Shown in pieces: positions 4,685 to 29,045 of a DNA stretch of 42,067 nucleotides. The position numbers and the translations under genes were made by a program. The notes under the pieces are model-generated. The model was not told the origin of the DNA, did no database searches, and saw nothing but the letters and a program-made list of their open reading frames with translations. This stretch comes from a virus. Within the stretch, counting starts at the first letter, position 1, and every line of letters starts with the position of its first letter. The DNA lies in IMG/VR virus record IMGVR_UViG_3300017776_000036, positions 1 to 42,067 of that record; one strand, 5' to 3'.

Positions 4685-4692
4685 TATAAATA
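4685..4692 (+). promoter_or_regulatory. T4-type late promoter, leaderless type
   Basis: Perfect TATAAATA followed by GTACT and ATG at 4698: exactly 5 nt between octamer and start codon, as at 118 and 9864. The spacer is identical to that of the gp13 promoter. Confidence 0.8.
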
Positions 4693-4697
4693 GTACT

Positions 4698-7600
4698 ATG
4701 GCACTTACAAAAATTACACAAACACTTGTAGAAACTGGAGCAATTGGATCATCTCAAATTGCGAGTGGTGCTATAGGTGCAGGACACCTCACCAATATTA
4801 CTACTAATCATATAACTGAAGGTAACAGTAATCAATTCTTTACTACTGCCAGGGCTAGATCGAGCTTATCTGGTAGTACAGGAGTTACATATAATTCATC
4901 CACTGGTGCCATTTCTATAGGGCAGGCAGTCGGAACATCTGATAGTGTTACATTTGGCCAAGTCACAGTAGATACCATTACAATTAACGCATCAGAAATT
5001 GCCACATCTGGCAATATGATATTAAACTCTGCCAGTGACGTAATCTTAGATGTTGATGGCGGTAACGTCATGCTAAAAGATAACTCAGTGTGGTTTGGTA
5101 ATTTTAACCATAACGGCAATAACCTAGCAATAGATGCGAAAATACAAGACGGCGATATAAAATTTAGAGGTAATGATGGTGGTACTGTTATTACTGCTCT
5201 TACCCTTGATATGTCAGATGGTGGTGCAGCAATATTTAATAATGATATTTATTTATCAGATAATCGTGCAGTACGGTTCGGAGATCAGCAAGATTTCCGA
5301 ATTTATAATGATGGAAACCATACTACTTTTCATAGTGCTAGTACTAATCATGATATAATTTTTAGAGGGAATGATGACGGAAGTTCTATCACTGCACTTA
5401 CCTTAGATATGTCAAATGCTGGTAAGGCTACATTTGCTGGTATCGTAAGTTCAACAACTGGACTTGAAACTGGAAACATGTTTATTACGGCAAATGAAAT
5501 TGATGTTTCTTCTGGTAACCTTACTTTGGATGTTGCAGGAAATATTATTTTAAATGCTGATGGAAGTTCAGTAAGTCTCATGGATGACACTGTCAATTTT
5601 GGGCAGTTCTTTAGTACAGGCGCAGGTAACTTTAACATTTACTCTCCTACACTTAACCAAGATATTAAATTCCTTGGTAATGATGGTGGTAGTACTGTTA
5701 CTGCTCTTACTTTGGATATATCGAATGCAGGTAAGGCAACATTCAATAGCGATGTTGTAGTAGGTGGTGACTTAATTGTTAATGGCACACAAACTGTTTT
5801 AAATACTGCAACTTTAACTGTTGAAGATAAAATAATTACAGTAGCTCACGGTGCATCGGATGCTGCAGCCGCGAACGAATCAGGTATAAATGTTGGTGGT
5901 GCAAGTGCTCAAATTTTATATAAGTCAAGTGGAGATAAATGGTCCGTTAATAAAGATTTAGAAGCAGCAAATAGTAGTGGCGCAATGATAATGGTTGACG
6001 ACACTAACGGCAGATTTATTAAAATACGTTCAGCAAATAGTGGTTCACAAAATGCTAACATATCATCTTATTCGGGATTATATTTAGGTGGTGCTGATAA
6101 TGCCAGTCATGTTATAATTGATAATACCGGTGATGTTGGTATCGGAGTAACTCCAGCAACAAATACAAAACTCACTATAGGAGGAACAACATCCTCTTAC
6201 AGTTCTGTCTTATCATTTGATAATAATACCGCAGGTGGTGCAACATTCTTTATGCTTGCTTCTGATAATACTTGGAGTGCAGGAGCAAATAAATTCTTCA
6301 TGGGTCATGGCTCTCCTTCCAGTTCGGCAGTTGATATGACAATTGATGCTGATGGAAAGGTTGGTATTAAAAATACTGCACCTGCTGCAACTTTAGAAGT
6401 TGGAACATTAACGAGTGGATTAACTGGTAATGTAATTATTAATTCAGAAGGTGGAAACCCTCCCGCTTTACAAGTTAAATCACGAACAAATAGAGCTCGT
6501 ATAAACATTCAGGACAATGATACATCTGGATATATTATTGCAGAAGGTAGTGTTATTAGTATTGGATTTGCTGATCAAATAAGTGATAATAACATTAATA
6601 TTAATAGTTCACATAATGTTGGTATTGGCACAACTGCTCCAGATGCAAAGCTTTCTGTAACAAGTTCAACAATTAATAGTGAAGATATCGTTTATTTAAA
6701 ATCAGGTGCAGATAGTGTCAATGATTATTTAGGTATTGCATGGGAACTTGGAATTGGCGGTAATGGACCTCATGCCGCAATTAGAGTAGCAGGTGGACCA
6801 AGTGCACAAGATTCTCGTCTTGGTTTATTTACTACTAGTGATGGAGGCAGTAATCTTACAGAGGGGCTTAGTGTAGCTCATAACGGCAATGTTGGTATCG
6901 GAGAAAATTCTCCACTTACTCCATTACATATTTCTGCAGGTACATCAAGTGGCACGATGTATAATGCCGCAATATTTACTGGAGGTCAAAATTCTACACA
7001 AGGGTCTGGAGTTAGACTGTATTTATCAGGCACAGAAAATGATCCTCTTGCAAGAGGTTCTATTATAGAATCAGAGATGATTGATAATGGAAATTCTCAT
7101 GTATTGAATTTCTATACCAGTGGTAATTCTCAAGCACCTCGTTTAAGAATGAGAATTGATAATAGCGGTAATCTCTCACTTAGACAACATGGGGCAGCAT
7201 CCACTAATAGTGTAAATATGCCGCCACATTTTGAATTTAAAGGACAAGGTTGGGACAGTAATTCTGGTTCCGATGATATGAATGCCAAGATTGAAATGGC
7301 AGCAACGTATGGTAAGGTTGGAGCTGGTGCAACCTCTCCTGAATTAGTGTTCTCACTTCAAGGAGCAGGAGGATTGGATTCTTCATCTGAATCTTATGTT
7401 GAAGGAATGAGATTAGTAGGTGCAGGGGCATACAATCATAACCAACCTAGACTAGGTGTTGGAATTGCTAACCCCTCTAAAACACTAGATGTTTATACGG
7501 CAGTGAATACGGGCGGTATGCAAATTACTGGTGGCACTGCTGCCACAAATACCTCACTCCATATAAACAATACTGGTTCTGGTGGTGTAAACTGGAACAT

Positions 7601-9863: not shown

Positions 9864-9871
9864 TATAAATA
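9864..9871 (+). promoter_or_regulatory. T4-type late promoter, leaderless type (neck operon)
   Basis: Perfect TATAAATA followed by GTACT and ATG at 9877, with no Shine-Dalgarno between. The 5-nt spacer is identical to that at 4685. Confidence 0.8.
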
Positions 9872-9876
9872 GTACT

Positions 9877-10626
9877 ATGGCAAAACCAAATTCAAGACAA
9901 ACATTTATAGATTACTGCCTCAGAAGTTTAGGAGCTCCTGTGGTTGAGATTAATGTGGATGATGATCAAGTAGAGGATAGAGTTGATGAAGCTCTACAAT
10001 TTTATCAAGCATATCACAGTGATGCTATTGAGAAGGTATATCTAAAACACGAAGTAACCCAAACAGACATTGACAATGGATACATTGCAATTAATGATCT
10101 GGTAACTGATGTTGTTCGTGTAATGCCATTAAGAGATACTAAGTCAACTAACAGTTTATTTGATGTCAAGTATCAGATACACTTAAATGATGTATATAAT
10201 CTCGGATTTTTAGGTTCATTGGTAGATTATGAAATGACTCAACAATGGTTATCTTTATTAGATAGAATAATGGATTCTGATGATAAACATATATCATTTG
10301 AAAGACATAAAAATCAATTACGAATTGACATGGATTGGTCAGCCGAAGTTGCAATAGGTCATTATTTGGTTGTTGAGTGTTATAGAATTATTGATCCTAA
10401 TACATATACTGATGTGTATAATGATTATTACTTAAAGAAATACGCGACTGCACTTATTAAACAGCAATGGGGTCAAAACTTATTAAAATTTGAAGGTATG
10501 ACTATGCCGGGTGGAGTTCAGTTTAATGGTCGACAAATCTATGAAGATGCACAACAAGACATAGAAAAATTAACTGAAGAAGTCAGATTGAATTGGGAAC
10601 AACCAGTCGATTTCTATACGGGGTAA
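9877..10626 (+). CDS. 13: Neck protein gp13
   Basis: 249 aa, against 309 in T4. Recognised by its conserved N-terminus (RQTFIDYCLRSLGAPVVEIN), the aromatic heart (ALQFYQAYH) and the position immediately before gp14 and gp15. In T4, gp13 and gp14 form the neck that seals the filled head and joins it to the tail. It starts the gp13-14-15-16-17 late operon, with the next gene 3 nt downstream. The product is shorter than T4 gp13, as in marine relatives. Confidence 0.88.
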   Translation: MAKPNSRQTFIDYCLRSLGAPVVEINVDDDQVEDRVDEALQFYQAYHSDAIEKVYLKHEVTQTDIDNGYIAINDLVTDVVRVMPLRDTKSTNSLFDVKYQIHLNDVYNLGFLGSLVDYEMTQQWLSLLDRIMDSDDKHISFERHKNQLRIDMDWSAEVAIGHYLVVECYRIIDPNTYTDVYNDYYLKKYATALIKQQWGQNLLKFEGMTMPGGVQFNGRQIYEDAQQDIEKLTEEVRLNWEQPVDFYTG

Positions 10627-19363: not shown

Positions 19364-20536
19364 ATGTCAAATGACGAAATTAAAAATGAAGATTTAGTTT
19401 CTGAAGACATTCAACAAGATGCTGAAGAGCTTGATCAAGAAGGGCTCGTTGAAGACGAACAAGTTGAAAACGAGGAAACTCTTGAAGAAGGCAAACACAA
19501 GAAAGGTAAGTACGAGTCAGAGTCTGATGAAGACGAAGATGAGGACGAAGTTAAAGAAGAAGCTGATGACGAAGACGAAGAGGACGAAGAGCCTGAAGTC
19601 AAAGAAATTAGTGTTCCTAAAACTAAAGCCGGTGTTATCTCAGCAGCAGTTGAAATGTTGAAGAAAGCTAGAAAGGAAGATGCGCAAAAACTTTTTGCAA
19701 AAATGGCCAAAGTCAGCGAAGGCGAAGAGGAAGACTCTGTTGCTTCAGTTGATAAGGCAGTAAAATCTGCACCTCAAAAGAAAAATGAGCTCAAGGCGAA
19801 AGCTAAAGTAGAGTCCATTGATTTTGAAGAGGATTTAGATGCAGTGATTGCTGAAGAGGCTACATTGTCTGATGGGTTCCGTGGTAAAGCTGGTGCAATT
19901 TTCGAAGCTGTACTTACAAGTAAGTTGGCTCAGGAAGTTGAAAGGCTAGAAACAGAATACGCGCAAAACTTAGAAGAAGAGGTTACAGACGTTAAAGGCG
20001 AACTGGTTGAGAAAGTTGATTCTTACTTAAACTATGTTGTTTCTAACTGGATGGATCAAAATGAAGTTGCAGTAACAGAAGGTCTTAGGACTGAACTTGC
20101 TGAAGAATTCATGGCTTCTTTACAAACAGTGTTCAAAGAACATTACATCGATGTGCCTGAAGGTAAGGTAGACTTGGTAGACGAATTGGCTGCACAAGTT
20201 TCTGAACTTGAAGAATCATTAAATAAAACCACAGAAGATAATATCAAACTACACGAATCAGTTCAAACTTTAGAAAGAGCTGAGGTAGTAAGAGAACAAT
20301 CTTCGGGGCTTGCAGACACAGAAGCTGAGAAGTTAGGTTCTTTGGTTGAAGATATTGAGTTCGATAACAAGGATAACTTTGAAATGAAAGTTAAAGTTGT
20401 TAAAGAGTCATACTTTACTAAAGAAATTAGCGAATCAACTGATGAAGTATCTGACGTAGTAGGAACTGACGAGGCTCCGGCTGAAGTTAGTGACGTTATG
20501 AATAGATACTCACAAGCAATCTCTAAATTTAAATAG
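19364..20536 (+). CDS. 22: Prohead scaffold protein gp22
   Basis: 390 aa, much longer than T4 gp22 (269). The first ~80 residues are a highly acidic extension (runs of D/E near residues 50-75), followed by long helices with coiled-coil character and an SDGFRGKAG-IFEAVL segment near 170. It makes the inner core on which gp23 assembles and is degraded by gp21. AGAGGAG upstream sets the start. The acidic N-terminal extension is unusual against T4. Confidence 0.9.
   Translation: MSNDEIKNEDLVSEDIQQDAEELDQEGLVEDEQVENEETLEEGKHKKGKYESESDEDEDEDEVKEEADDEDEEDEEPEVKEISVPKTKAGVISAAVEMLKKARKEDAQKLFAKMAKVSEGEEEDSVASVDKAVKSAPQKKNELKAKAKVESIDFEEDLDAVIAEEATLSDGFRGKAGAIFEAVLTSKLAQEVERLETEYAQNLEEEVTDVKGELVEKVDSYLNYVVSNWMDQNEVAVTEGLRTELAEEFMASLQTVFKEHYIDVPEGKVDLVDELAAQVSELEESLNKTTEDNIKLHESVQTLERAEVVREQSSGLADTEAEKLGSLVEDIEFDNKDNFEMKVKVVKESYFTKEISESTDEVSDVVGTDEAPAEVSDVMNRYSQAISKFK
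20528..20535 (+). promoter_or_regulatory. Possible imperfect late promoter for gp23
   Basis: TTTAAATA (one mismatch to TATAAATA) overlaps the gp22 stop codon. It would start a ~20-nt leader holding AGGGG before ATG 20561. T4 gene 23 has its own late promoter. In such AT-rich DNA the match could be chance. Confidence 0.3.
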
Positions 20537-22606: not shown

Positions 22607-23053
22607 ATGAATAACTTAGAAAAAATTTTAGAAATGTGGAAGAAAGATTCACTCATTGATGAAATGAGACTTGATGAATCCTCCCGCGACTCTGCCAAAC
22701 TACACTCGAAATACCTAGAATTATATAGTGTCAATAAAATGAAGTTAAAGAAGCTCGATCTTGACTTCAAAATTATCCTTAGAGATAAATTCATGCACTA
22801 TAATGGTAAACTATCCAAAGAAGAAATGGACTCCAAAGGATGGGACTATGATCCACTTAACGGTTTGACTGTGCTTAAAGGCGATATGGATAAGTGGTAT
22901 GATGCCGATCCTGTTATACAAGAACATCAAGCCAAGATGGAATATCAAAAAGAGATGTGTGATACCCTTAAAGAGATAATGGAAAATATTAAATGGCGAC
23001 ATCAGAATATCAAGAATATGATTGAATGGAGAAAATTCACCAGTGGTATTTAA
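22607..23053 (+). CDS. uvsY: Recombination mediator UvsY
   Basis: 148 aa (T4: 137). Matches UvsY in length, charge and order of features: KDSLIDEMRLDESSRDSAKLHSKY near the start, then LDFKIILRDKFMHYNGK and a C-terminal helix ending NIKNMIEWRKF. It loads the UvsX recombinase onto ssDNA coated with gp32. First gene of an early operon with a sigma70-like promoter; the next gene overlaps its end. Confidence 0.88.
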   Translation: MNNLEKILEMWKKDSLIDEMRLDESSRDSAKLHSKYLELYSVNKMKLKKLDLDFKIILRDKFMHYNGKLSKEEMDSKGWDYDPLNGLTVLKGDMDKWYDADPVIQEHQAKMEYQKEMCDTLKEIMENIKWRHQNIKNMIEWRKFTSGI

Positions 23054-23549
23054 TGACTTTCTTACGCATAACGAGCTAAAGAAAATATTTGCAATTAATC
23101 CTAAATGGGAAAAAGGTTCTACTATTAAGAATCAAGATGCTCGTATAGTTGATACCTATGATATAACCGGCAAGTTTGCATGGTTGGATCAGAAAGTAGC
23201 CAAACTTGTGCAAGAAAGAAATAAAGGTTTCAGTTATAAAATAAAAAGAATTAACGAGACCAGATTGTTACAGTATAGACCAGGTGGTAAGTATGACTGG
23301 CACCAAGATGTAATATGGTCTGAGCCAGAACATAGAAAATTTACATATATAATACAACTATCTAAACAACATGAATACACAGGCGGTGATTTTGAATTTA
23401 GGGATGCTGATAACATTGACCTTTCAACCTTTCGTAAGCAAGGGTCTATAATTGTGTTTCCTTCTATTATGCATCACAGAATAACACCACTTACAAAGGG
23501 AATTAGATTCTCTATTGTAGGGTGGGTTGTAGGACCACAATGGACGTAA
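23043..23549 (+). CDS. 2OG-Fe(II) oxygenase (prolyl-4-hydroxylase-like)
   Basis: 168 aa from a GTG at 23043, chosen because GGAG (23028-23031) precedes it and the sequence then starts VFNDFLTHNEL like the family; a TTG at 23022 is the alternative. Double-stranded beta-helix dioxygenase: YDWHQD gives H87 and D89, MHHRITP gives H145, and GIRFSI gives R155 for 2-oxoglutarate. It should hydroxylate a protein, nucleotide or small molecule; the substrate is unknown. The gene sits between uvsY and uvsW with overlaps on both sides, so it is expressed with recombination proteins. Confidence 0.85.
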   Translation: MVFNDFLTHNELKKIFAINPKWEKGSTIKNQDARIVDTYDITGKFAWLDQKVAKLVQERNKGFSYKIKRINETRLLQYRPGGKYDWHQDVIWSEPEHRKFTYIIQLSKQHEYTGGDFEFRDADNIDLSTFRKQGSIIVFPSIMHHRITPLTKGIRFSIVGWVVGPQWT

Positions 23550-25039
23550 TAAAAATAAAAAAGAAGAACGAATCCTTCTTGGAAATACTCACAGAGCCAT
23601 CCATAGAGCAAGAGTTGGCTGAACATTTTTGTTTCTATGTCCCTGGTTATAAATTCATGCCAGCATATAAAAATCGTATGTGGGATGGAAAAATTCGTTT
23701 ATATGACCTAAGGAAGAAAACTTTATATACTGGGTTATTCCAATATATGCAAGAATTTGCTAATGCTAGACAATATGATATAGAACTAGATAATGGCGAA
23801 TATGGTATGCCAGGAGCCAAGAATGTTATAGACATACCAGCACTGCTAAATGAATTAACACTCACTGCTGGTGGAGATAAAATTACCCCTAGGGATTACC
23901 AATTAAATGCATTAGAACACGCGCTTTCTAACAGTCAGTCTTTACTTCTATCACCTACTGCATCAGGTAAGTCACTTATTATTTACATGGCTGTTAGGTT
24001 CTTTTTAGAAGCATCTGATCAGAATGTCCTATTAATAGTACCCACAACATCTCTTGTAGAACAGATGTATTCAGACTTTGCTGATTACTCCCAGTTTGAT
24101 GAGTGGAATGTAGATGAAAATTGTCACAAAATATATGCAGGACGAGAGAAGTATAACATACCTAATAGAGTAGTTATCACTACATGGCAGTCAATATATA
24201 AAGAAAAGTCAACCTGGTTCCAACCCTATGGTATGGTTATAGGAGATGAGGCACATTCATTCAAGGCAAAATCACTTACTGCTATTTTGGAAAAATGTAC
24301 TGAGTGTAAATTTAGAATGGGCACTACAGGAACTTTGGATGGAACACAGACTCATCAATTGGTATTAGAAGGATTATTTGGGCCTGTACATAAGGTGACT
24401 ACCACTAAGAAATTAATGGATAGTAATGACTTGGCCAAGTTGGATATTAACATATTACTATTAAAATATGCAGATGAATACTGTAAAGAAAAACGCGACT
24501 ATCAGGCTGAGATGGACTTTATAGTAAAGTATGAGCCAAGAAATAATTTTATATCCAATCTGGCCATGGATTGTGATGGGAACACACTCATATTATTCCA
24601 ATATGTCGATAAACACGGCAAACCTCTACATGATATGTTAAAGAATAAGTTTGATAAACTCGATATAACACAACGAAAACTGTTTTATGTAAGTGGAGAA
24701 ACCGATGTTGATACGAGAGAGGAAATTAGGGCTATTACCGAAGAGCAGAATGACGCAATTATTGTGGCGAGTATGGGTACTTTTTCTACTGGCATTAATA
24801 TTAAGCGCCTACACAATATTATATTTGCTTCACCAAGTAAGAGTCAGATTAGGGTATTACAGTCCATAGGTAGAGGGTTAAGAAAGTCTGCTGATGGCAA
24901 GAATACGAAGGTATACGATATAGCAGATGACTTACATTGGAAGTCCAGAAAGAATTATACACTAGTTCATGCGGCAGAGCGCATTAAGATATATTCAAAA
25001 GAGAAATTTGACTACAAGCTATTCGATATAAATATATAA
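23540..25039 (+). CDS. uvsW: RNA-DNA/recombination helicase UvsW
   Basis: 499 aa (T4: 503). AGGA at 23531-23534 sets the ATG at 23540. The N-terminal segment includes AYKNRMWDGKIRLYD, the UvsW-type DNA-binding domain. Superfamily 2 helicase motifs: Walker A SPTASGKS (138-145), DEAH (236-239), TGTLDG, and motif VI QSIGRGLRKS. It unwinds R-loops and branched intermediates, moving replication from origins to recombination in T4. It overlaps the oxygenase by 10 nt. Confidence 0.93.
   Translation: MDVIKIKKKNESFLEILTEPSIEQELAEHFCFYVPGYKFMPAYKNRMWDGKIRLYDLRKKTLYTGLFQYMQEFANARQYDIELDNGEYGMPGAKNVIDIPALLNELTLTAGGDKITPRDYQLNALEHALSNSQSLLLSPTASGKSLIIYMAVRFFLEASDQNVLLIVPTTSLVEQMYSDFADYSQFDEWNVDENCHKIYAGREKYNIPNRVVITTWQSIYKEKSTWFQPYGMVIGDEAHSFKAKSLTAILEKCTECKFRMGTTGTLDGTQTHQLVLEGLFGPVHKVTTTKKLMDSNDLAKLDINILLLKYADEYCKEKRDYQAEMDFIVKYEPRNNFISNLAMDCDGNTLILFQYVDKHGKPLHDMLKNKFDKLDITQRKLFYVSGETDVDTREEIRAITEEQNDAIIVASMGTFSTGINIKRLHNIIFASPSKSQIRVLQSIGRGLRKSADGKNTKVYDIADDLHWKSRKNYTLVHAAERIKIYSKEKFDYKLFDINI
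25027..25034 (+). promoter_or_regulatory. Candidate late promoter before the Sm-like gene
   Basis: Perfect TATAAATA inside the last codons of uvsW, then TATAAT, then ATG 25041 (6-nt spacing). The gene has no Shine-Dalgarno, so a near-leaderless late message would explain its start. It lies within coding sequence, where a chance match is possible. Confidence 0.45.
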
Positions 25040-25040
25040 T

Positions 25041-25439
25041 ATGGAAGACCTAAATATAAGAAACTTTAAATTAATCAACGGTGATAACATCATTGCATTG
25101 GTCAGTGCTAATAATAGGGATAATTATGTAGTAGAACGACCAGTTTCAGTTTACAGCAGTATGGTGGGTGGCTATCAGTTCACTCCTTGGTTTCCATTTT
25201 CAGAACAGAACAGGCATTCTATTGACAAGCATAATATAGTAGGTGATTCTAGTGTAGTGGAAGACATTAAGAGAGAATACATAAAGTTTGCATTACAGAA
25301 AAAGTCTTTCGCCCCTCCCGAATCACATGAGGTATTACTAGAAAGAATCACTAATGAAATTGCCAACCGTTTTGAAGTTACAGAAGAAATAACAGATGAG
25401 GACTATGAACCCGTACCGACTAAGGAGACAGTACATTAA
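25041..25439 (+). CDS. Sm-like (Lsm/Hfq-fold) protein, candidate RNA binder
   Basis: 132 aa. The first ~85 residues follow the phage Sm-like pattern: FKLINGDNIIALV, then ERPVSVYSS, then FTPWFPFSE with HNIVGDSSVVED-IKREY. This is the family whose crystal structure from a marine phage-like sequence showed an Sm fold (established knowledge, from memory). The C-terminal ~45 residues are acidic and extended. It is related in plan to the protein at 39457. No ribosome site; one base from the uvsW stop. RNA binding is inference. Confidence 0.6.
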   Translation: MEDLNIRNFKLINGDNIIALVSANNRDNYVVERPVSVYSSMVGGYQFTPWFPFSEQNRHSIDKHNIVGDSSVVEDIKREYIKFALQKKSFAPPESHEVLLERITNEIANRFEVTEEITDEDYEPVPTKETVH

Positions 25440-25474
25440 TGTGGTATACCTCTACCCCCTCGGGTTACTATATT

Positions 25475-25503
25475 ATTATATACCATTTAGCCGAATTTGT
25501 CAA
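25475..25503 (-). promoter_or_regulatory. Consensus sigma70 promoter facing backwards
   Basis: On the minus strand: TTGACA (25503-25498), 17 bp, TATAAT (25480-25475), a full consensus match. The block GTGTTGACAAATTCGGCTAA nearly repeats the + strand promoter at 29017. Transcription would run antisense into the Sm-like gene and uvsW. No minus-strand gene is evident. Confidence 0.7.
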
Positions 25504-25524
25504 CACTTTTGTTAAAAATAATTA

Positions 25525-25543
25525 AATCTTTTTTACAGATTTT
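25525..25543 (+). other. AT-rich inverted repeat between divergent promoters
   Basis: AAATCT and AGATTT arms around a 7-nt spacer, located between the minus-strand promoter and the gp55 promoter. It could be a weak terminator or a regulator site, or chance in AT-rich DNA. Confidence 0.3.
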
Positions 25544-25545
25544 TG

Positions 25546-25574
25546 TTTACATTTGATTGAAAGCATGTTATAAT
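25546..25574 (+). promoter_or_regulatory. Early sigma70-type promoter for gp55-47-46
   Basis: TTTACA, 17 bp, TATAAT preceded by TGT (extended -10) and followed by ATAC. The leader is short, with GGAGG at 25586-25590. Confidence 0.88.
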
Positions 25575-25599
25575 ATACTAATTATGGAGGAAACCCAAG

Positions 25600-26172
25600 A
25601 TGGCAAAATTAAAGCCTAAAGAAAAACCACATTATGTTAACAACCGTGAATTCTCGGAAGCAGTCTATGACTATGCAAAAGAAGTAGCAGTTGCACGTGA
25701 AACCAATACGAACCCACCCAAAGTGACAGATTACATTGCAAAATGTTTTATTAAGATTGCAGAGGGATTATCACATAGACCTAATTTTGTACGATATACT
25801 TACCGAGAAGAAATGGTAATGGATGCAGTAGAAAATTGTTTAAGGGCCATTGGAAATTATAATATCGAAGCATCAACTAGAACCGGCAAACCTAATGCAT
25901 TCTCTTACTTTACACAGATATGCTATTTCGCCTTTATTAGGCGAATAACCAAAGAGAAGAAACAACAGGATATCAAGTTTAAGTTCATCGAGAAGATGGG
26001 CATCGAGGACTTTGTAGCTATGGGTATGGACAATGAAGGCGCAGAAATTACTATGCAATATGTCGATACACTAAGACAAAGAATTGATCAAGTCAAGACT
26101 AAAGATGCTAAGATTAAACAGTTCGCGAAAGAAGAAAAGGAACGCGAAAAACTAGAATTATTTATGGTATAA
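25600..26172 (+). CDS. 55: Late-transcription sigma factor gp55
   Basis: 190 aa (T4: 185). Conserved segments: YVNNREFSEAVYDY at the N-terminus, IAEGLSHRPNFVRYTYREEMVMD and NAFSYFTQICYFAFIRRI. These give a reduced sigma70 region 2 that recognises only the TATAAATA -10 octamer; T4 gp55 works with gp33 and clamp gp45. GGAGG with a 9-nt gap sets the start. It is the regulator expected to read all the late octamers listed here, and is driven by its own early promoter. Confidence 0.93.
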   Translation: MAKLKPKEKPHYVNNREFSEAVYDYAKEVAVARETNTNPPKVTDYIAKCFIKIAEGLSHRPNFVRYTYREEMVMDAVENCLRAIGNYNIEASTRTGKPNAFSYFTQICYFAFIRRITKEKKQQDIKFKFIEKMGIEDFVAMGMDNEGAEITMQYVDTLRQRIDQVKTKDAKIKQFAKEEKEREKLELFMV

Positions 26173-29008: not shown

Positions 29009-29016
29009 AAAAAGTG

Positions 29017-29045
29017 TTGACAAATACGGCTAATTGTAGTACAAT
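29017..29045 (+). promoter_or_regulatory. Early sigma70-type promoter for the VWA gene
   Basis: TTGACA, 17 bp, TACAAT followed by ATACC. Start of a 29-nt leader with AAGGAG before ATG 29075. Upstream lies the palindrome at 28991. Confidence 0.88.

Follow-up and report, generated by a model that had tools for sequence, protein, structure and literature searches.

A backward-facing sigma70-type promoter conserved behind the Sm-like gene of T4-like marine phages, with a possible role in early antisense transcription

The window, i.e., the whole stretch of DNA analysed here, is a 42,067-base viral contig from a T4-like marine phage, whose best whole-genome relatives are Phage C48C1, Pelagibacter phage HTVC008M and Synechococcus phages. 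The head genes, uvsW, a gene encoding a Sm-like protein, gp55, gp47 and gp46 lie on the plus strand throughout. A sigma70-type promoter on the minus strand is located entirely inside the 160 nt that separate the Sm-like gene (end at 25439) from gp55 (start at 25600), with 35 nt between its -10 element and the Sm-like stop codon. Further upstream, between uvsY and uvsW, the ORF 23022-23549 carries what we take to be a 2OG-Fe(II) oxygenase-like sequence and overlaps the ends of both neighbours. The features discussed below are the following:

23522..25039, plus strand: uvsW helicase (Pfam UvsW_N, phrog_16), further along the possible antisense path
25027..25034, plus strand: TATAAATA, putative late promoter of gp55 type located 6 nt 5' of the ATG of the Sm-like gene and partly confounded by its overlap with the uvsW C-terminus
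25041..25439, plus strand: Sm-like (LSm-fold) gene (phrog_527/phrog_471), to whose 3' end the minus promoter is anchored
25424..25453, minus strand: conserved AGAGGTATAC block, with a weak second stem that extends into the stop codon of the Sm-like gene (moderate evidence)
25454..25465, minus strand: short inverted repeat ACCC-GAGG-GGGT directly past the expected start, which could form a hairpin at the 5' end of the minus RNA
25468..25469, minus strand: place where transcription is expected to start, on A or G, 6-7 nt past the -10; A/T-G-T recurs at this place in relatives
25475..25503, minus strand: sigma70-type promoter, -35 TTGACA at 25503-25498, 17-nt spacer, -10 TATAAT at 25480-25475, 12/12 consensus positions
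25546..25574, plus strand: early-type gp55 promoter, TTTACA-17-TATAAT, divergent from the minus promoter
25600..26172, plus strand: gp55, late sigma factor (phrog_234, E 2.6e-51)
29017..29045, plus strand: promoter with the GTGTTGACAAAT.CGGCTAA block in common with the minus promoter

The first-pass annotation had reported a perfect TTGACA-17-TATAAT on the minus strand and its divergence from the gp55 promoter, and both observations are exact. Three sites with 12/12 matches are present between positions 20000 and 39000, the minus promoter being one of them and the other two lying on the plus strand. A consensus match by itself proves little, and its significance comes from conservation. Promoter-like sites with at least 9/12 matches are no more abundant in this DNA than in shuffled sequences (73 vs 67.5), so that the test must come from relatives. 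Because the minus promoter is wholly intergenic, plus-strand coding cannot account for its conservation.

Neighbourhoods of gp55 (three queries against viral contigs) and of the Sm-like gene were gathered, together with annotated phages, and gave 169 dereplicated loci with a Sm-like gene upstream of gp55, from viral contigs, cyanophages, HTVC008M and the Sinorhizobium phage phiN3. A minus-strand sigma70-type promoter with at least 10/12 matches is present in the Sm-like/gp55 gap in 168 of these 169 loci, and the -35 and -10 elements, whose conservation in relatives had been proposed as a check, are thus indeed retained. Promoters were also scored in 176 dereplicated 160-nt regions upstream of gp55, with dinucleotide shuffles as controls. 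Minus promoters with at least 10/12 matches were found in 96% of the window group, 99% of the cyanophage group and 72% of the HTVC008M group (4-13% in shuffles), and those with at least 11/12 matches in 67%, 83% and 63%, respectively (at most 1.1% in shuffles). With one exception, the regions missed by this 160-nt scan correspond to loci in which gp55 has moved 200-670 nt away and the promoter is still found behind the Sm-like stop codon; the remaining one (L059, window group) falls under the score cut-off, yet its gap sequence contains TTGTCA followed by TATAAT. The two boxes and their 17-nt spacing are kept, whereas the sequence between them has varied almost without restriction; in this alignment the TATAAT column is fixed by construction, which is not the case in the shuffle test on the 176 regions. 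In whole genomes, consensus minus promoters are rare, and the Sm-like/gp55 site is among them. Consensus-like sites are common in AT-rich DNA, and a chance or relict promoter could be imagined on these grounds, but the fixed place of this one in nearly all loci, with diverged spacers, contradicts such an origin, which we consider hardly credible. It is highly probable that the minus promoter functions as a promoter.

The position of this promoter is defined by the Sm-like gene. In 158 loci, it lies 20-50 nt from the Sm-like stop codon (MAD 4 nt), while its distance to gp55 varies from 1 to 614 nt, and in the loci with a displaced gp55 it occupies its usual place in all cases except phiN3. No counterpart was detected at a comparable place in the three dereplicated loci without a Sm-like gene before gp55 (T4, L217 and L254). 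Since the promoter keeps its distance to the Sm-like stop codon rather than to gp55, and has no counterpart where the Sm-like gene is missing, its partner is the Sm-like gene. These distances also bear on the idea that promoter occupancy itself is what matters, the bound polymerase acting as a roadblock or as a competitor of the gp55 promoter and keeping late readthrough from the head genes, uvsW and the Sm-like gene out of gp55, with the RNA being irrelevant. In several cyanophages (L106, L110 and L111), the -35 elements of the divergent promoters overlap in the gap (TTGACA...TGTCAA), so that both promoters could not be occupied together, and the inverted repeat at the start site described below would also fit such interference. 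However, displacement of gp55 leaves the minus promoter beside the Sm-like gene, and competition with the gp55 promoter therefore cannot be its kept role; we regard interference as improbable.

The label 'Sm-like' given to the neighbouring gene in the first-pass annotation proved correct: the protein matches the profile of PDB 3BY7 (2.5e-12) and its fold (TM-score 0.93 on the target), with a pLDDT of 79 for the AlphaFold model. In cyanophages, the gene corresponds to T4-GC 139. Its C-terminal end reads T-[VI]-H in the window group, HTVC008M and phiN3, and does not do so in cyanophages. The late promoter motif TATAAATA occurs 14 times in the window vs 6.4 expected, with 13 of the 14 copies on the plus strand, and is located 6-7 nt 5' of the ATG at four genes (118-131, 4685-4698, 9864-9877 and 25027-25041), a placement suggesting that the late mRNAs could be leaderless or nearly so. 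The motif precedes the Sm-like ATG in 37 of 44 loci of the window group (0.9 expected) and in 12 of 53 HTVC-type loci, and in none of 69 cyanophage loci. Its recurrence in the window group indicates that the Sm-like gene is probably late there and opposed by an early promoter. In T4, the removal of origin R-loops by UvsW is the reason for its late synthesis (PMC3016281), which by inference makes an early brake on the uvsW/Sm-like block plausible.

The block GTGTTGACAAATNCGGCTAA is present twice in the window, at 25506-25487 on the minus strand and at 29014-29033 on the plus strand (0.01 expected), in agreement with the near-exact repeat of the 29017 promoter that had been noticed before. The shorter agtgTTGACAAA is common to the promoters at 25503 (minus), 29017 (plus) and 31277 (plus), the additional CGGCTAA being found only at the first two, where it remains a curiosity. 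In 28 loci of the window group, we compared the minus promoter with distal plus promoters, either from the same phage or from others. Likeness within the same phage was higher for the 4-nt flank 5' of the -35 (0.611 vs 0.377; p=0.0005) and for the -35 itself (0.987 vs 0.902; p=0.0005), and at chance level for the spacer middle (0.358 vs 0.350). The minus promoter and the gp55 promoter also tend to have a TGTACA-type -35 together (Fisher p=7e-5, for lineages that are not independent). Such phage-specific -35 and flank sequences, common to minus and plus promoters, are expected if the same polymerase reads both. The likeness to the 29017 promoter thus mostly reflects a phage-wide promoter dialect (agtgTTGACAAA), and the proposal that the minus promoter is a copied and inverted early promoter finds no support, the spacers of minus and other promoters in relatives being no more alike than by chance. 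In each phage (the window and relatives L004-L101), this dialect combines the tetranucleotide 5' of the -35 with a TTGACA, TTTACA or TGTACA hexamer. Promoter dialects may mark differences in host or polymerase.

Transcription from sigma70 promoters usually starts 6-8 nt after the -10. In the window group, the first 35 nt past the -10 are conserved (AGTCATCCGGGGGGATAGAGGTATACTA), and a stem with a score of at least 4, centred about 15 nt past the -10, is present in 28 of 55 distinct sequences, with 19 different arms (7.0 in shuffles, at most 17 in 200 shuffles). A second stem, between +20 and +66, has a mean score of 7.52 vs 6.68 in shuffled sequences. Cyanophages and HTVC-type phages exhibit an inverted repeat directly past the -10 and centred on the expected start, e.g., AACTCT-GTC-AGAGTT or CCGG-TATGT-CCGG; a stem score of at least 4.5 is reached in 47 of 60 cases (7.9 shuffled) and of at least 4 in 27 of 38 (10.1 shuffled). 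The arms of this repeat are variable, with TGT near the middle (L104-L111, L114-L193 and L195-L273). If transcription starts at 6-8 nt, half of the repeat lies outside the RNA, and it therefore cannot be called an RNA hairpin. This start-centred repeat is the strangest part of the locus. Other consensus promoters of HTVC008M, S-SSM7, S-CAM9 and C48C1 do not, as a rule, carry such a repeat. Column-wise covariation in cyanophages is small (0.82 vs 0.79 shuffled, and 0.30-0.63 when slid), the register differing between groups, and an ungapped column-pair scan gave no clear helix, with shifting registers. The G-U/A-C strand test favours the minus sense in cyanophages (50:1) and in HTVC-type phages (22:1), which may reflect composition, one arm being rich in T and the other in G; it shows no strand preference in the window group (7:12). 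In single-sequence folding, neither the minus RNA nor the plus strand was more stable than shuffles, mean folding z-scores across relatives were small for both strands, and Rfam scans at gathering and permissive thresholds gave no family match.

These data bear on the possibility that the promoter produces a short structured RNA acting in trans, with a 5' hairpin, a purine block and a second stem, which would be encoded behind its Sm-like chaperone and target phage or host RNAs. The conserved 5' block and the stem past the start in the window group, the Sm/LSm fold of the neighbouring gene product and the position fixed to its gene would all be consistent with such an RNA. On the other side, half of the inverted repeat of cyanophages and HTVC-type phages lies upstream of the expected start, no clear terminator and no Rfam family were detected, and RNA binding by the Sm-like protein is itself putative; we thus consider a trans-acting RNA possible and rather unlikely. 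It is distinctly unlikely that the minus transcript is more specifically a dedicated RNA partner of the Sm-like protein, locked to the 3' end of the chaperone gene and with a start-site hairpin controlling its synthesis, in T4-like phages infecting cyanobacteria, SAR11-type hosts and rhizobia; if true, this would represent a phage riboregulatory module in one of the commonest marine virus groups.

A small protein could be another product of the minus promoter. The 32-codon minus ORF listed in the first-pass annotation does exist (25436-25338), but its role as a product does not hold, since ORFs at the same place in relatives range from 1 to about 50 codons and no minus ORF is conserved in the window group. 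In this group, an ATG or GTG is present about 31 nt past the start, and on the opposite strand this start codon belongs to the conserved end (His-stop) of the Sm-like protein. The situation differs in the Sinorhizobium phages phiN3 and phiM12, in which the promoter and the start-site repeat are kept and a small minus ORF is located between them and the Sm-like gene. In phiM12, this ORF is annotated as gp042 (50 aa), and a related end, IGDNVxPxYRRF, is found in phiN3. The two Sinorhizobium minus ORFs (L304:2149-2301 and L113:1079-1246) have similar ends (IGDNVIPNYRRF and IGDNVMPSYRRF), the remainder being diverged. Despite the rhizobial case, the irregular ORFs of the window group make it very improbable that the promoter serves to express a small protein.

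The neighbourhood of uvsY and uvsW, the G-rich RNA start in the window group and the use of an early promoter by T4 oriE (PMC3016281) raise the question of whether the site could be a replication origin resembling T4 oriF/oriE, at which the minus RNA would prime the leading strand via an R-loop. However, the 100 bp of downstream DNA are not less stable than random windows and contain no A+T-rich unwinding element, the GC-skew extrema of HTVC008M, C48C1 and S-CAM9 lie elsewhere, and there is no strand switch at the site. We give this origin hypothesis only a slim chance. The rivals therefore rank in the order trans-acting RNA, promoter interference, small ORF and replication origin.

The best-supported role of the locus is the production of an early sigma70-dependent antisense RNA against a late Sm-like gene, a full mechanism to which we assign slightly less than an even chance. 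That an early-type promoter reads antisense into the Sm-like gene, as first proposed from the window, is very likely real; we infer transcription itself, its early timing, repression and a reach into uvsW from the sequence. In the proposed scheme, a host sigma70 promoter located some 30 nt past the end of the Sm-like gene would fire leftwards early in infection, producing a cis-antisense RNA that would cover the 3' end of the Sm-like gene and possibly reach uvsW, while its partner promoter would fire rightwards into gp55. Host polymerase would use both promoters and gp55 would accumulate, the antisense RNA or head-on polymerases meanwhile holding the Sm-like gene down. Once gp55 reprograms the polymerase, sigma70 promoters would fade, antisense transcription would end and the Sm-like gene would come under its late promoter. 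Several observations do not fit easily with this antisense mechanism. Synonymous sites at the Sm-like 3' end show no extra constraint (0.54 vs 0.50 elsewhere), i.e., no visible selection on a long pairing region; the late motif is absent before the Sm-like gene of cyanophages, so that an early/late opposition does not hold for all groups; the inverted repeat at the start site finds no place in the scheme; and a small minus ORF follows this promoter in Sinorhizobium phages.

Antisense transcription in lytic T4-like phages has so far been a matter of single cases (CfrI). A fixed backward promoter in nearly all phages with the Sm-like gene makes an antisense purpose testable across many hosts and flags the Sm-like protein, which is unstudied, as something whose expression merits control. 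The T4 'anti-late RNA' and lambda-type antisense RNAs such as OOP are known systems in which an early promoter produces an RNA complementary to a late gene; they are not known to be homologous to the present site, and T4 lacks this gene order and promoter. The fold of PDB 3BY7, a Sm/LSm-like protein, is that of the neighbouring gene product, the two sharing about 19% identity and being set apart by an additional C-terminal part. T4 oriF/oriE resemble the site in having a promoter without obvious gene in a recombination-gene neighbourhood (PMC3016281), whereas neither an unwinding element downstream nor a skew signal is present at our site. In the searchable literature, which most subscription journals lie outside, we found no antisense RNA of T4-like cyanophages besides CfrI and no description of a widely conserved backward promoter. 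CfrI is an antisense RNA of about 225 nt, located at psbA/homing endonuclease and experimentally shown only in cyanophage S-PM2 (PMC2984593, PMC5931967). Like the RNA predicted here, it is a cis-antisense RNA of a T4-like marine phage directed against the end of a phage gene; in contrast, the present site, predicted from sequence, lies behind the Sm-like gene and is near-universal in relatives that carry this gene.
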